From the IMG/VR virus record IMGVR_UViG_3300028925_009268, positions 1-29,985 of that record: a DNA stretch of 29,985 nucleotides. One strand, 5' to 3'. The stretch is from a virus. Under the pieces are notes generated by a model, which was not told the DNA's origin, made no database searches, and worked only from the letters and a program-made list of their open reading frames with translations. Positions 7,272-26,578 of the stretch are shown here, one piece after another (position 1 is the stretch's first letter; the number at the start of each line of letters is the position of its first letter). The translations under genes were made by a program, and so were the position numbers.

Positions 7272-7900
7272 CTATAGTTACCAATGTAGAAATTAAATTG
7301 CGGAGTATGGCTGGGATATTTAATGCCTGATCCTGGCCTTCCCCATACAATCTCTTTTTCTTGTATTTCTGCGACATACTCCAGACCTCGATCGTTAGGG
7401 TGGTCGATCTTTTGATCTTCATGCGTATAGCGGCGAACCCTTGCGCGGTCAAAAGCGATTAGCTTATTTTCCACTGCAACTGATATTGTCCCGGTTGCAC
7501 CATCGTCAGAAATGCTCATAACGTCCATAAAGCCGATGAACAACTCAACAGGCGATGAGATGATGTCGTTGTTTTCGTCCATTGCGCCGAGCTTAATGGT
7601 CAGCTTGCGTCCTTGGTAGTCAGCATCTCTTGCCTTTGTAAGAAGCGGTTCACTTATCCCGGTAAGCGTTACACTCGCACCATTAGCAGTTAGCTCTGTT
7701 GCCTCGCTAATTTGTCCAATGCTTAACAGGTTTCCTGCCCCAACATAGAGCTGAGAGTTATAGGTTATCTGCCCATATCCCGACCAAAAGTTTAGCTGCC
7801 CACCATCTGCGGCATCAAACTCGCACTCAACAAATAAAACAGGCCGAACAATATCAGCGGTCGCAACCGCCTGCATTTCTGCGGATAGTGATCTACTCAT
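7268..7900 (-). CDS. Minor tail protein (DUF2163-like)
   Basis: 210 aa from MSRSLSAEMQ, a start that gives an ATGA overlap with the upstream gene; the 19 extra codons back to 7957 would lie inside that gene. The opening (RPVLFVECEFD, then LNFWSGYGQITYNSQLYVG) is typical of conserved minor tail proteins between the tape measure and the tip, in the place held by lambda gpL-like factors. The C-terminus has an FDRARVRRYTHEDQ stretch, also characteristic. It probably joins the distal tail ring to the tip. No cysteine cluster was seen, so it is not a plain gpL copy. Confidence 0.65.
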   Translation of the reverse strand: MSRSLSAEMQAVATADIVRPVLFVECEFDAADGGQLNFWSGYGQITYNSQLYVGAGNLLSIGQISEATELTANGASVTLTGISEPLLTKARDADYQGRKLTIKLGAMDENNDIISSPVELFIGFMDVMSISDDGATGTISVAVENKLIAFDRARVRRYTHEDQKIDHPNDRGLEYVAEIQEKEIVWGRPGSGIKYPSHTPQFNFYIGNYR

Positions 7901-8439
7901 AATGCTTCCATTAGTGGGATAGTAAAACCGTAAATCGAAGCGGTATCTATCGACCAATTAACTTCGCTTGTAGATAGCCGCCAAGTTCCTTTCGGTAGGG
8001 TAAAGTCTAAAGCAGTCGATGTGCTGATTGCAGTGCGAAGCGGCGGCATGATTTTAAACGTACCTCCAGAAGCGCCCTCAGTGATGATATGCAAGGCGTT
8101 ATTGACCTCGAAGTAATCACCTACAACAGCGCCTGTTAGCGTCCCAGTAACCTCTGTGTCGCCTATATCGCCTGCTGTTATTGTGCCAGTTGCGGTTGTC
8201 GTGTGAATCGGGCAACCTAGCTTGAAAGTGCCTGACATTCCGCGCAGCCCAGCCAAAAACCCTTCGATTGCTTTAGCATCTTGGCGAGTTAGTGGCGGCA
8301 AAGTCACTTCAGCCTCCCACATCACTCCCTGATGCTCATAAACCTGCTGCTGATAGGTAAATGGCGATGAGCTCATAGATACAGCAGAGCGCAACCGCAT
8401 TGTCATGCTCTGGATTCCTATGCTTGGAAAGTCTGCCAT
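7897..8439 (-). CDS. Minor tail protein (distal tail type)
   Basis: 180 aa. It has a Met-rich start (GIQSMTMRLRSAVSMSSSP), an E-x-x-V-T-L-P-P-L-T-R-Q-D-A segment near residues 44-57 and a beta-rich Thr/Gly middle. These patterns recur in minor tail proteins just after the tape measure in marine and lambda-like siphoviruses. Its ATG follows the tape-measure stop directly (TAAATG) and its stop overlaps the next gene (ATGA). The likely role is the distal tail ring. The specific family cannot be confirmed by eye. Confidence 0.6.
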   Translation of the reverse strand: MADFPSIGIQSMTMRLRSAVSMSSSPFTYQQQVYEHQGVMWEAEVTLPPLTRQDAKAIEGFLAGLRGMSGTFKLGCPIHTTTATGTITAGDIGDTEVTGTLTGAVVGDYFEVNNALHIITEGASGGTFKIMPPLRTAISTSTALDFTLPKGTWRLSTSEVNWSIDTASIYGFTIPLMEAL

Positions 8440-10233
8440 TTATCCACCCACCAATTGTTTAGAGTATGTACCGCCGCGCAATCGACCCTCGGCAACGGCA
8501 GCCTTAGCGTGTGCTGCAATTTGCGGCATCAGGTTTACGATCTCAGAGCGTACTGTTTGCGATACGCCAGTAGATACGTTAATCGTCTGGTTTACTGTAA
8601 CGCCAGCGCCTGATTGCAGCCTGTCATTTGGGATTATAGACCCGCTCTGACTTGGCACAAATAGTTCTTGGCCTCGCTCGCCAACCATGTAAGGTTGCCC
8701 AGCCTGTACAGAACCACCAACAGCTTTCCCAGTGGGCGCAGTAGCTCCGCCTCCGCCAGCGCCTCCGCTTATGCCTCCCGTAATTGCATCAAACAGCGGC
8801 TTAGTAATGTAATACTGCACAAGCATTTTAATTAATGAATCAACAATTGACTTGGCCATTGATTTTATTGCGTCTGCAAATTTAGCCGCTCCAGTTATTG
8901 CAGCCGTTACAGCATTGGTGAATCCATCCATTCCTTGCTTTGCCAAATCCTTCATCGACTCTTGCAAAGTAGGAAGCTCATTCGACCAATCAGTAAACGA
9001 TTGACGAACATTATTCACGCTTTCGCCAATGTTAGCTGTTGTGCCCGATACGGTTTCTTGAGTTGATACCAAAGCAGAGCGCAGCAAGCCCAGTTTCTCA
9101 ATCCAAGCATCGGCAAAGTTCAGCTCTGGGGTGGCCATGCCGGATTCCAAATCCTGAGCTTGCCACATCAATTCCTCAAGCTCTGCAATGGTCGCAGCAA
9201 ACCTGTCGCCTGTCTGCATTATTGCTTCATCAGACATCCCAACGCCTGAGCCACTCATAAATCTTTCTTGCGCGGCCTTTGCTTTGTCCAGCTCCTCACG
9301 ATATTCCTGCGAGCTTTTTAGACCGAGGCCGAAAACGCCAGCAATCTTGTTCTTGACTTGAAGGGAGGTTGTATAAACAGAGATGAAGCCGTTGGCCAAT
9401 TCCTGCAATCCAACAATAGCCGCCTCAACGCCGCCAAGGAAATCATAGGCAAGCGTTCGAGCAAAGCCAGCAATGCCGCCCTCGCTCTTTGTAATCTCTA
9501 AAACCCAATCCTTTAGGACGGTGGTGGCGATCTCAATTGCCGGAGCTAGTGCAGCAACAAACTGATCTTTAATGCCGCCGGTCAAAGTGCCTAGCCGTAC
9601 AAGCGCGTCAGATGCTCTCTCAACGCCTTTGGCTGCACTTGTACTCATCACAGCGCCAAGAGTCTCGGCCTCGTTAAACATATCTTTAAGGCCGTCAGAA
9701 CCCATCTTCAAGACATTAACAAGAGAAACACCTTCCGAGTCGAACAGCTTAAACGCCAAACGCACTTTGTCAGCCTCGCTGCCAACACCCTCAAAGGCAT
9801 CTGCGAGGATAAGCATCTGCTCATCAAGTGGGATTTTCTGCAATGCTCTTGCGTCAATGTTCAGCTCTCGCAATGCGCTTTTGGCTTCACCTGTACCCTG
9901 AGCGGCTTCAGCTAGTCGGCGAGTAAACCGCTGCATCGCCATATCCATTGTGCGAGTTTCTACGCTCGCCAGACCTGCCGTATAGTGCAGCCGGGATAAA
10001 GCCTCAGTTGTTGTGCCGATCTTGGTAGCGGTCTTTGCTAGGGCATCTGTCGCATTTAATGACTGACGCACCAAAAAGCCGAAGCCGGCAATACCGGCAG
10101 CAGATAATAGAGCGGTCTTTAAGTTTAGAGCAACTCTGGCAACAGAGCGCAGCCCTTTGGTAATACCTGCTAATCCGACTTTGGTTTTATCCAATGCCGT
10201 TATGACAATCTTAACATTTTGCTCATCAGCCAT
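8440..10233 (-). CDS. Tape measure protein
   Basis: 597 aa, Ala-rich and mostly helical, with a hydrophobic patch at about residues 33-57. The C-terminal region has a Gly-rich linker and then GGSVQAGQPYMVGERGQELF followed by VPSQSGSIIPND, the classic tail end of proteobacterial tape measures. The gene follows the tail chaperone pair and precedes the minor tail genes, the universal order in siphoviruses. By the usual ruler of about 0.15 nm per residue, it would set a tail of roughly 90 nm. Its ATG lies 8 nt inside the frameshifted chaperone frame, so translation of the two is coupled. Confidence 0.93.
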   Translation of the reverse strand: MADEQNVKIVITALDKTKVGLAGITKGLRSVARVALNLKTALLSAAGIAGFGFLVRQSLNATDALAKTATKIGTTTEALSRLHYTAGLASVETRTMDMAMQRFTRRLAEAAQGTGEAKSALRELNIDARALQKIPLDEQMLILADAFEGVGSEADKVRLAFKLFDSEGVSLVNVLKMGSDGLKDMFNEAETLGAVMSTSAAKGVERASDALVRLGTLTGGIKDQFVAALAPAIEIATTVLKDWVLEITKSEGGIAGFARTLAYDFLGGVEAAIVGLQELANGFISVYTTSLQVKNKIAGVFGLGLKSSQEYREELDKAKAAQERFMSGSGVGMSDEAIMQTGDRFAATIAELEELMWQAQDLESGMATPELNFADAWIEKLGLLRSALVSTQETVSGTTANIGESVNNVRQSFTDWSNELPTLQESMKDLAKQGMDGFTNAVTAAITGAAKFADAIKSMAKSIVDSLIKMLVQYYITKPLFDAITGGISGGAGGGGATAPTGKAVGGSVQAGQPYMVGERGQELFVPSQSGSIIPNDRLQSGAGVTVNQTINVSTGVSQTVRSEIVNLMPQIAAHAKAAVAEGRLRGGTYSKQLVGG

Positions 10234-10716
10234 CGCGGTCGCCCTGAATTTTAAAGAAAGCGAGCCACTCGTTAAATTCGGTCAACGATATTTGCTCAAT
10301 TTCTTCAATTGTTTTATTTAGCCGACAAGCCAAGGAAATAAGGTTATATCGAGACTGGTCGGCTATAAGTTTTTTTCGGCTTCCTCTACTGACTCGATCT
10401 CTGCGAACATTTGTTGAGCAATGTCAGAGACAACAACAGTCTCCTCACCCATCAGATCAACTTTGTCCTCAGCAGCAGTGAACAGCTTTTCGCCGTCCTC
10501 TCCCTCAGCCTTCATGCAGATCAGATCAACCATTGACGCAATGGTAGTCTCCTCAAGAAAGCGCGGGTGCTTCTTTTGCAAGATGCTCAAGTCATAGCAG
10601 GTTATTGGCCGACAATATAAAGCAAAAGGCTGACCTTCCTTGTCAGCCCATGCCTTAACCTCTATGCGTCTGCGTTTGATTTCGCGCCGTTGGCGTAATT
10701 CTTTAGCAAGACCCAT
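10226..10716 (-). CDS. Tail assembly chaperone long form (gpGT-like, made by -1 frameshift)
   Basis: Predicted 163-aa fusion. The ribosome reads 116 codons of the short chaperone, slips back one base on A AAA AAC (10375-10369) and continues for 47 codons to a TGA at 10228-10226. The new tail has SRYNLISLACRL and then TEFNEWLAFFKI, the look of the T-domain of lambda gpGT-like proteins, which recruits the tube protein to the tape measure. The added segment fills exactly the 130 nt between the short stop and the tape measure, a stretch with no other gene. The long form should be a minor product bound to the tape measure during tail assembly. The reading was made codon by codon from the sequence. 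Confidence 0.85.
10319..10375 (-). promoter_or_regulatory. Programmed -1 frameshift signal: slippery heptamer plus downstream stem
   Basis: In the leftward transcript the heptamer A AAA AAC (10375-10369) is in the right register for -1 slippage (gaA AAA AAC, then TTA TAG in frame 0). Three nucleotides later comes TAGCCGAC (10365-10358), which is perfectly complementary to GTCGGCTA (10326-10319), giving an 8-bp stem with a 31-nt loop. If the two outer pairs open, the spacer becomes 5 nt, close to the usual range. The 0-frame stop codon lies within the first arm. A pseudoknot using the loop is possible but was not worked out. Confidence 0.85.
10363..10716 (-). CDS. Tail assembly chaperone short form (gpG-like)
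   Basis: 117 aa, basic at the start (KELRQRREIKRRRIEVKAW) and acidic at the end. The size, the place between tail tube and tape measure, and the slippery site within the last five codons all fit the gpG class of chaperones that coat the tape measure during tail building and are absent from the finished virion. A strong Shine-Dalgarno (AAGGAG) lies 7 nt before the ATG. It ends in frame with EKNL and TAG; a minority of ribosomes should shift into the T-like extension. Confidence 0.85.
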   Translation of the reverse strand: MGLAKELRQRREIKRRRIEVKAWADKEGQPFALYCRPITCYDLSILQKKHPRFLEETTIASMVDLICMKAEGEDGEKLFTAAEDKVDLMGEETVVVSDIAQQMFAEIESVEEAEKNL

Positions 10717-10727
10717 GTGTTACTCCT

Positions 10728-11135
10728 TTATGCGACAGTAGTTTCGGTTACTGCTCCGCTTACTTGTACTGCGAAGCTAACCTCTACCATACCATCAAAG
10801 CTGGCTGTAATGCTACGGCTAGTAACAATTCCAGAGCCAGACATATAAGTCTCGCCTGAACCTGTCCCGGTAGGATACAGCTCAAAATCAATGCTTGCGC
10901 CTTCGTCCAGCACCAATTGGCCAGTGGTGTCGCTCTCGTCCCAGTAAGCGTCAACGCTCAAGGTGCTAGATTTCAGACCAGCCTTGTAGGTGCGAGCAGA
11001 ATCGCCCATGCTTGAATCTTCAATGGTATCGGCAGTGCCGTCCAGAGTGTAAGTGCGAACTTCCGCGACAGCAGCAACAGAACCGCCTGATGCCGCAACT
11101 TTAATAACGCCTGACGCGCCTGTTGATGTTGCCAT
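10728..11135 (-). CDS. Major tail tube protein
   Basis: 135 aa, rich in Ser, Thr, Gly and Val, without cysteine, with repeating beta-strand patterns. The segments VRTYTLDGTADTIEDSSMGD (26-45) and FELYPTGTGSGETYMSGSGI (84-103) match the style of siphovirus tube proteins, in which a long loop lies near the first third. It sits directly before the chaperone genes and after the tail terminator. It should polymerise as stacked hexamers around the tape measure. The protein is short for this family but covers the single tube domain. Confidence 0.85.
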   Translation of the reverse strand: MATSTGASGVIKVAASGGSVAAVAEVRTYTLDGTADTIEDSSMGDSARTYKAGLKSSTLSVDAYWDESDTTGQLVLDEGASIDFELYPTGTGSGETYMSGSGIVTSRSITASFDGMVEVSFAVQVSGAVTETTVA

Positions 11136-11146
11136 GATAATTCCTC

Positions 11147-11581
11147 TTAGGTTGTGCCTCGATTATACCGATAAATCACTCGCACTGTTATTAGCACTCC
11201 ACCAACCGGGTCGATCGACCCATCGTCAGTTTCAACGCTAATTACTTGAGTGTTTACAGCATAACCGCCGCGTGTGCGATCAATGTCTAACTTTTCTTCA
11301 ACCGCTTCAATGATGTTATTTCTAGCTGTGTCGATGTTTTTGGCTTTCACATAGCAGACTAGCTGGTAGTCAATAGACCCGCTTCGCTGAGTCATTGAGC
11401 CGCCAATGGTTGAGTCCTCTCGGCTTTCGTTCTGGGTTCGCACCAAGATTGCCGGGAATTGCGCATTCGATAACTTGTCAAAATCAAAAGGCTCTCGTGT
11501 AACCAACTTAACTTTGTTGGGGTATCCGATAGCCTCAAGCGTTTCGACTAGATTGTCAGCAATGTTTTCTCTAGTGCTCAC
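11147..11581 (-). CDS. Tail terminator protein (gpU-like)
   Basis: 144 aa with an alpha/beta layout: N-terminal helix (ENIADNLVETLEAIG), a strand with FPAILVRTQNE, a central YQLVCYVKAK strand, a helix with NNIIEAVEEKLD, and a final ITVRVIYRYNRGTT strand. This order is that of gpU-type terminators, which cap the growing tail tube and join it to the head. It lies between the tail-completion gene and the tube gene, as expected. The stop is 11 nt before the tube start; its own start overlaps the upstream gene by 4 nt (ATGA). Confidence 0.75.
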   Translation of the reverse strand: MSTRENIADNLVETLEAIGYPNKVKLVTREPFDFDKLSNAQFPAILVRTQNESREDSTIGGSMTQRSGSIDYQLVCYVKAKNIDTARNNIIEAVEEKLDIDRTRGGYAVNTQVISVETDDGSIDPVGGVLITVRVIYRYNRGTT

Positions 11582-12033
11582 TTCATCTGCCTCATAAAGT
11601 ATTTAACTAGCCTGTCTTTTTCTGCATCGTTAAAACCAAAGAAAGGCCGCAGCTTGTTATTCATTGCAGCCTTTTTAGCCTCGGTCGCCCGACTGAAAAA
11701 GATTTCAGCTTCGTTTTGATTGGACTTGTGAGTAATAGATCCAAGCATTTGCCCGCTGACCCGTAGATTGACTATGCCAGAGGCATCGCCGCCAAAGCCT
11801 CTAGTTCTGCCAGAACCTTCCCAGCCCAGAGACTTTTGCATTGCATACCCGGCAGAGTATGGCTCAAACTTTCCATCAAAACCCTCACCCTTGGCAGTTC
11901 TATCTAAAATGATATTTGTGCCTAGAATTGCGGTTCTGTTTAGAGCCTTTTCCCGATGTTTTAACTTTTCTGAGACAGCCTTGCCAGCCAGCTTCTCAAA
12001 AGCCTTCGGCAAGATTGTCACCAAAAAGCGCAT
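11578..12033 (-). CDS. Tail completion / head-tail joining protein (HK97 gp10 or gpZ type)
   Basis: 151 aa, basic. The first third (FEKLAGKAVSEKLKHREKAL) is a helix, followed by ILGTNIILDRTAKGEGFDGK and a YSAGYAMQKS segment that resembles virion-morphogenesis proteins of the gpZ/HK97 gp10 group. The C-terminus has RPFFGFNDAEKDRLVKYFMR, a feature of this group (R-P-F-F-G-F). It sits between the connector and the tail terminator. Expected role: joining a full head to a finished tail. Start and stop overlap both neighbours (TAATG and ATGA). Confidence 0.75.
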   Translation of the reverse strand: MRFLVTILPKAFEKLAGKAVSEKLKHREKALNRTAILGTNIILDRTAKGEGFDGKFEPYSAGYAMQKSLGWEGSGRTRGFGGDASGIVNLRVSGQMLGSITHKSNQNEAEIFFSRATEAKKAAMNNKLRPFFGFNDAEKDRLVKYFMRQMK

Positions 12034-25261: not shown

Positions 25262-25398
25262 TGAACTTTTCATATTACGAGGGTGTGATGGACTGTGCTG
25301 AGGGCTTACCGCCTTCGGTGGGTCGTGATGAAGATTACTACAACGGATATGGCGATGAATACGCCTACAACATAGACAAACCGGAGAGTGAACAATGA
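25261..25398 (+). CDS. Small acidic Tyr-rich protein
   Basis: 45 aa, read directly: MNFSYYEGVMDCAEGLPPSV then GRDEDYYNGYGDEYAYNIDK and PESEQ. Very acidic and rich in Tyr. It starts in a TAATG overlap and ends in an ATGA overlap with erf, so it is inside the coupled operon. Acidic small phage proteins can act as DNA mimics, but nothing here proves that. No family recognised. Confidence 0.6.
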   Translation: MNFSYYEGVMDCAEGLPPSVGRDEDYYNGYGDEYAYNIDKPESEQ

Positions 25399-25958
25399 AC
25401 AGCAGCACTAAAATAGAATCATTAGCAGCAGCACTGTGCAAGGCGCAGAGCGAGATGGGCGGGGCAGTTAAGGATAGCGCCAACCCATTTTTCAAGTCTA
25501 AATACGCCGACCTTACATCTGTAATTAAGGCAATTAAGCAGCCCTTTGCAGATAACGGCCTTAGCTACACTCAATTCCCCGTCTCAAGCGAGCATGGTGT
25601 TGGCGTACTTACCCGGCTAATGCATAGCAGCGGTGAATATATCGAGCATGAGTATATTTTGCCGCTAGTCAAAAAAGACCCGCAAGCTGCTGGCTCTGCA
25701 ATAACGTACGCTCGCCGGTACGCTTTGCAAGCAATGGCTGGAATACCTACGGCAGACGATGACGCGGAATCTGCAATGCTGAGAGGCGACAAGCCAGAGC
25801 CACTATCAGAAGACACAGTGATTGAAGTAGCCGCCCTGATAGATAAGACGGGCACTGATAAGGCCAAGGTCTTGCAGGCTTACAAGGTTCAGCGCATAGA
25901 GGACTTAACTGCCGACAATGCTAAACACTTGATCGGTGTGTTGAGTAAACGCCTGTGA
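25395..25958 (+). CDS. erf: ERF-family single-strand annealing protein
   Basis: 187 aa. NPFFKSKYADLTSVIKAIKQ (30-49) and the hallmark AGSAITYARRYALQAMAGIP (99-118), followed by a DDDAE run, are characteristic of the Erf family of recombinases, which anneal complementary single strands like lambda Beta. The C-terminus (about 140-187) is a helical tail. It lies immediately before a YqaJ-type exonuclease and SSB, the standard two-component recombination cassette for circularising or concatemerising phage DNA. The stop overlaps the next GTG (GTGA). Confidence 0.95.
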   Translation: MNSSTKIESLAAALCKAQSEMGGAVKDSANPFFKSKYADLTSVIKAIKQPFADNGLSYTQFPVSSEHGVGVLTRLMHSSGEYIEHEYILPLVKKDPQAAGSAITYARRYALQAMAGIPTADDDAESAMLRGDKPEPLSEDTVIEVAALIDKTGTDKAKVLQAYKVQRIEDLTADNAKHLIGVLSKRL

Positions 25959-26578
25959 TTATCCTTAACGATGAGCAAGGCTCTGAGGCGTGGCTGCGGT
26001 CGCGCCTTGGTAATATTTCGGCCAGCAGGGTAGATAGCATTTTAACGCCAACAGGCAAGCCATCTGCCCAAGCTGATAAATATATAAACGAACTAATTGC
26101 GCAGCGGCTATCTGGCGAATTGCCAGAGACTTATACTAACTCGCACATGGAGAGAGGCAATGAACTTGAACCTTCGGCTCGCGCTCTTTATGAGCTTGTT
26201 AATGATTGCACTGTGGATTTGGCTGGATTCTGCCTGCACCCCGACTTACCCGCCGGGTTTTCCCCTGACGGATTCGTTTCTACAGCGGGCGGCTTAGAGA
26301 TCAAATGTCCTGCGCCGCATACCCATGTCGAGAATTTAAGAAAGGGCAAGGCTCCGACTAAATACCTGCCTCAGATGCAGATGGCGCTCTGGATTAGCGG
26401 TCGAGAGTGGTGGGACTTTATGAGTTACCACCCAAAGATGGAGCCGCTTATTGTGCGAGTCGAGCGCGATGAAGAATACATTGAGAAATTACAACAGGAA
26501 GTAACTAAAGCAGCCAAGTTAATCGATAAGGAAGTCGAGCGGCTGGCATCAACTAAAGGTGATAAAGATGGGAACTAA
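25955..26578 (+). CDS. YqaJ-type recombination exonuclease
   Basis: 207 aa, GTG start overlapping erf. Motifs: GSEAWLRSRLGNISASR (9-25), HMERGNELEP (64-73), GFSPDGFV (101-108, Asp105), LEIKCP (114-119, Glu115 and Lys117) and YLPQMQMAL (137-145, Gln140). They form the D-(E)-x-K nuclease core of the lambda exonuclease/YqaJ family. It should digest double-stranded ends 5' to 3', making single strands for Erf. All core residues are present. Overlaps ssb by 11 nt. Confidence 0.95.
   Translation: MIILNDEQGSEAWLRSRLGNISASRVDSILTPTGKPSAQADKYINELIAQRLSGELPETYTNSHMERGNELEPSARALYELVNDCTVDLAGFCLHPDLPAGFSPDGFVSTAGGLEIKCPAPHTHVENLRKGKAPTKYLPQMQMALWISGREWWDFMSYHPKMEPLIVRVERDEEYIEKLQQEVTKAAKLIDKEVERLASTKGDKDGN

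Follow-up and report, generated by a model that had tools for sequence, protein, structure and literature searches.

The tail assembly chaperone gene of the window, by which we mean the whole 29,985-base virus record analysed here, is with a probability of about 95% a lambda-type G/GT gene whose longer product is made by programmed −1 ribosomal frameshifting. Membership of the lambda type is supported by position, signal, coding and predicted fold, and comparison with related loci indicates that the conserved frameshift is almost certainly functional. The class itself is a known one, and the addition made here is a set of putative stimulators that are specific to particular clades. From these data we infer the occurrence and rate of slippage, its stimulation by a downstream stem and an upstream GAGG, and the roles of both products.

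Gene context, slip site and protein families

The window carries a siphovirus-type tail module comprising genes for a tail terminator (11147-11581), a major tail (tube) protein (10728-11135, minus strand; phrog_10528, E 1.4e-15; PF06199, E 1.6e-7), a chaperone and a tape measure protein of 597 aa (8440-10233, minus strand; phrog_9483, E 1.1e-51; Tape_meas_lam_C, E 7e-9), with a distal tail protein gene at 7897-8439. The gene order is that of lambda V-G-T-H, and the ORF for the 117-aa gpG-like chaperone (10363-10716, minus strand) lies between the major tail protein and tape measure genes. Genes for an Erf-like annealing protein and a RecE-like exonuclease are found at 25395-26578 on the plus strand, opposite to the structural genes. 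The portal protein is closest to those of pelagiphages HTVC026P, 111P, 112P and 202P (50-52%), and a DNA-level search with positions 8440-11600 matched no cultured phage.

The 3' end of the chaperone ORF reads GCC GAA AAA AAC TTA TAG on the minus strand. It contains the slippery heptamer AAAAAAC (10375-10369), which the 0 frame reads as A|AAA|AAC, followed by a single sense codon (TTA) and the stop TAG (10365-10363). A −1 shift would instead read CTT ATA GCC GAC and continue for 47 codons to a TGA at 10228-10226, producing a fusion of 163 aa with a T-like extension (10226-10369, minus strand) whose last 8 nt are shared with the start of the tape measure gene (ATG, 10233). The original prediction of this signal proved exact on a minus-strand reading with regard to the heptamer and its register, an 8-bp downstream stem, and the lengths of extension, overlap and fusion. 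Its description of the gap as otherwise empty also holds, there being no other ORF of at least 60 aa in 10234-10362. The 41 candidate minus-strand ORFs contain 19 heptamers in register, and that of the chaperone gene is the only one with a −1 extension that passes the 0-frame stop, which argues that this slip site is more than a chance occurrence. We posit that most ribosomes would stop at the TAG and release the 117-aa chaperone, and that a minority would slide one base backwards on A AAA AAC when AAA occupies the P site and AAC the A site, translating the 47 further codons to give the 163-aa G-T fusion.

Assignment of the 117-aa protein draws on both family profiles and predicted structure. 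The tail assembly chaperone family phrog_344 was matched by 14 of 15 members of the window's protein family (best E 2.6e-7), the window protein itself giving E 0.016, and a PDB sequence search returned no chaperone match. Among PDB entries, the HK97 tail assembly chaperone 2ob9 matches the AlphaFold model of the 117-aa protein (pLDDT 80.4) best (Foldseek probability 1.00, E 6.7e-3, TM 0.53-0.58); it resembles the predicted fold but shares 17% sequence identity with the window chaperone. The extension is modelled as three helices (pLDDT 90.7) and matches phrog_337, annotated as 'tail protein', both in the window (E 4.6e-5) and in 12 of 15 family members (best E 2.2e-6); its match to PF06223 fell below the cut-off, and a fold search with the 47 residues gave nothing usable. 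The proposed likeness to T domains is tentative: it draws on phrog_337 and on Moraxella phages, with a profile match to the Moraxella extension at E 1.6e-8, and a direct comparison with lambda T shows little similarity (hhalign probability 6.5%, P 0.0057).

Conservation among marine phage relatives

Four scans of viral contigs, one scan of genome contigs and seven cultured phages yielded 328 usable loci, 319 of them from IMG/VR. Some contigs are present twice, and the loci form 71 clusters below 90% identity, represented by 39 sequences from the window's clade (clade A), 19 from a roseophage clade and 13 from a pelagiphage clade. The genome-contig scan contributed one relative, L329, from a Pseudomonadales MAG contig. 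The original prediction had named relatives without the heptamer or the extension as evidence that would speak against it; all 328 loci retain both, with the slippery heptamer in register within the last chaperone codons. The heptamer is A AAA AAC in 326 loci, A AAA AAG in HTVC112P and G GGA AAC, another canonical heptamer, in L329 (L329:3339-3345). Heptamer and extension are likewise present in HTVC111P, freshwater phage DSL-LC06 and Moraxella phage Mcat3. Of the two elements that the original prediction proposed to look for in related phages, the heptamer is conserved throughout and the stem in the window's clade only.

Codon choice within the heptamer runs against that of the genes carrying it. 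The lysine codon is AAA in all 38 clade-A representatives with lysine at this position, against an AAA:AAG ratio of 69:158 in their genes, and the pelagiphage asparagine codon is AAC in 13 of 13 representatives, against an AAC:AAT ratio of 10:66. Counted by codon position in the −1 frame, mismatches in the extension amount to 0.247/0.136/0.479, much like the 0.252/0.156/0.558 of G when read in the 0 frame; from this pattern we conclude that the extension evolves as −1-frame coding sequence under selection at the protein level. Between the window and the roseophages, the extension is 49-55% conserved and G 39-41%.

Alternatively, the extension might be a separate small gene, translated by termination-reinitiation at the chaperone stop, and a −1-frame ATG overlapping or directly following the stop (TGATG, TAATG) does occur in 55 of the 161 loci of the window's clade. 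The window, however, lacks a −1-frame ATG near the chaperone stop, ATG occurs as the second −1-frame codon at none of the 82 pelagiphage loci and at one of the 84 roseophage-clade loci, and neither ATG nor GTG is found between the upstream stop and codon +15 in 20 of 39 representatives of the window's clade, 12 of 19 roseophage and 13 of 13 pelagiphage representatives. Nor would reinitiation explain why the heptamer is fixed in opposition to codon usage. Because of this fixation and the missing ATG we reject reinitiation for the window and regard it as very improbable.

In none of the nine cultured relatives examined is the gene annotated as joined (frameshifted), and T domains are thus missing from their protein sets. 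The word 'frameshift' is absent from the paper describing the roseophage family (PMC12629253), and a paper on pelagiphages brings up tail frameshifting in general terms (PMC8163748).

Stem, GAGG and stop codon around the slip site

The two arms of the downstream hairpin (10319-10365, minus strand), TAGCCGAC at 10365-10358 and GTCGGCTA at 10326-10319, form a perfect 8-bp stem. RNA folding indicates a larger structure than originally described, as pairing in the same register runs inwards beyond a C-C mismatch (10356-10353 with 10331-10328). The 59 nt from 10368 fold at −18.2 kcal/mol, with a z-score of −4.95 against dinucleotide shuffles and of −2.15 when the shuffling preserves the −1-frame protein, in which case 9 of 200 shuffled sequences reach an equally low value. 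Across 31 representatives of the window's clade, shuffles preserving the −1 protein gave a mean z of −2.68; with codon-preserving shuffles no common stem was found in roseophages (mean z −0.35) or pelagiphages (−0.21). In an alignment of 36 sequences, 87.2% of the cells of the 18-pair hairpin pair, compared with 22-46% when the columns are shifted by one to three positions. Covariation is seen in 38 cells in which both partners have changed; shuffled data average 16.3, and none of 500 shuffles attains 38. This count overstates independence because cells count sequences and not independent events. One subclade has the stem rewritten from CCGATC/GATCGG to CCTCTC/GAGAGG, and the window's own change from T-A to C-G turns an otherwise conserved Asp codon into Cys.

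Outside the window's clade the heptamer is kept with other surroundings. In HTVC111P and 112P the stem is a different one, of 7 bp and set off by a 5-nt spacer; the window-type stem is absent from roseophages and from HTVC026P and 202P, and most pelagiphage relatives retain the heptamer without it. The stem is therefore probably a stimulator specific to the window's clade rather than a universal one. Four roseophage-clade loci (L138, L106, L136, L122) have a strong stem about 18 nt past the heptamer (GGCTCAACCTG / CAGGTTGGGC).

A published rule for stimulatory hairpins calls for a G-C pair at the start of the stem 4-10 nt past the motif and an unfolding energy of at least 7.6 kcal/mol (PMC4066793). 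The window's hairpin agrees with this once its two outermost pairs, U-A and A-U, are disregarded, which places the first G-C pair 5 nt past the motif; the full stem starts 3 nt past the heptamer and falls under the 4-10 nt range unless those pairs are discounted. Going by the mRNA-channel geometry given in PMC8861025, the outer two pairs would lie within the ribosome when the slip codons occupy the P and A sites, so that the working stem would be the inner part, from near 10363.

Upstream of the slip site, a Shine-Dalgarno-like GAGG (10383-10386, minus strand) ends 7 nt before the heptamer, as it does in 35 of 39 clade-A and all 19 roseophage-clade representatives. It is kept through several different second amino acids, and the glutamate codon at this site is GAG in 55 of 58 cases, compared with 272 GAG to 317 GAA in the gene bodies. 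Pelagiphages, which carry an A9 run, lack it. A GAGG located 6-17 nt before the second base of the motif is listed as experimentally stimulatory (PMC4066793), and that of the window lies 8 nt before this base; a review places such elements at 9-14 nt (PMC5009743). Set against these two ranges, a role for GAGG is plausible, and we regard it as a candidate stimulator in the window's clade and in the roseophages. A subclade without GAGG (L311, L315, L285, L295, L313, L325) is the one with the rewritten stem, and clade members without the element fold slightly more strongly (−24.6 versus −22.5 kcal/mol; 5 versus 28 sequences, too few for a trade-off). Within the window's clade, the hairpin 3-5 nt downstream and the GAGG 7 nt upstream probably raise the rate of slippage.

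The 0-frame stop lies one codon past the heptamer in 36 of the 161 loci of the window's clade, as in the window, and directly abuts the heptamer in the other 125 as well as in all roseophage and pelagiphage relatives. The abutting stop may be TAA, TGA or TAG, its position being kept while the codon varies. The original prediction further held that the stop, being situated in the stem arm, leads ribosomes that reach it to melt the stem; this overlap is not conserved, given the 36 loci that stop one codon on, and such a mechanism is not needed. A rather doubtful extension of the model is that the abutting stop is itself part of the switch, with competition from release factors tuning the G:GT ratio and with the hairpin, the GAGG and a longer A run acting as interchangeable aids in different clades.

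Slippage is possible on long A runs, and the change of frame might be attributed to RNA polymerase rather than to the ribosome; the window has an A7 run, and each of the 82 pelagiphage-clade loci an A9 run. Yet the run is just 6 or 7 nt long in the window's clade and in the roseophages (6 in 16 and 23 loci, respectively), the longest run in the GGGAAAC of L329 is 3, and the covarying downstream stem and strict codon register point to the ribosome. On the strength of the short runs, L329 and the stem, we reject polymerase slippage for the window, where it is even less probable than reinitiation. In pelagiphages it is possible that polymerase slippage supplements or replaces ribosomal frameshifting, since their slip site sits in a fixed A9 run. 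This run reads GTA AAA AAA AAC TAA in the loci concerned (L169-L248, L085, L086). Poly-A heptamers are common in the window, and one might suppose that the −1 frame is open by chance and that the heptamer simply results from a Glu-Lys-Asn end. This is refuted by the conserved −1-frame protein, the fixed codons, the conserved stem and the PHROG matches, and is exceedingly improbable.

Comparison with known systems and implications

A conserved tail assembly frameshift of dsDNA phages was described by Xu, Hendrix and Duda in 2004, as cited in PMC5009743. With lambda gpG/gpGT the window shares the order major tail protein, G, T and tape measure, an in-register −1 heptamer near the end of G, and a T frame that ends at the start of the tape measure gene. 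It differs from lambda in the slippery sequence (A AAA AAC against G GGA AAG), in the length of the T part (47 aa against 144 annotated) and in having a conserved hairpin and a GAGG, and neither its G nor its T part shows significant sequence similarity to the lambda counterpart. Roseophages CRP-406, -811, -821 and -823 of the CRP-822-type family (PMC12629253) and pelagiphages HTVC026P, 111P, 112P and 202P have the same chaperone, heptamer (A AAA AAC or, in HTVC112P, A AAA AAG) and extension, but differ from the window in their directly abutting stop, and their frame change is unannotated.

Moraxella phage Mcat3 resembles the window in having A AAA AAC, one codon and TAG, the same 5' arm TAGCCGAC and an extension starting LIAD, whereas its partner arm follows after a 4-nt loop and is succeeded by T7, its T part is 109 aa long and GAGG is lacking. 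Directly after the Mcat3 slip site come a 7-bp stem with an AAAA loop and then T7 (L331:1480-1540), an arrangement that resembles an intrinsic terminator, and the downstream reading frame is annotated as starting 36 nt later. The −1 frameshift of Escherichia coli dnaX likewise combines an A-rich heptamer with an upstream Shine-Dalgarno-like element and a downstream hairpin (PMC5009743, PMC8861025), but concerns an unrelated gene, uses A AAA AAG and operates at 50-80% efficiency; A AAA AAC is less slippery than A AAA AAG in E. coli (PMC5009743).

By analogy with lambda, the G part would coat the tape measure protein, recruitment of the tail tube protein would fall to the T part, and the G:GT ratio would thereby set tail assembly. 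The window adds a well-supported case of tail-chaperone frameshifting to abundant marine phages, and its fixed heptamer, together with a stem and a GAGG that vary by clade, provides a natural series on the exchange of putative stimulators at a single slip site.
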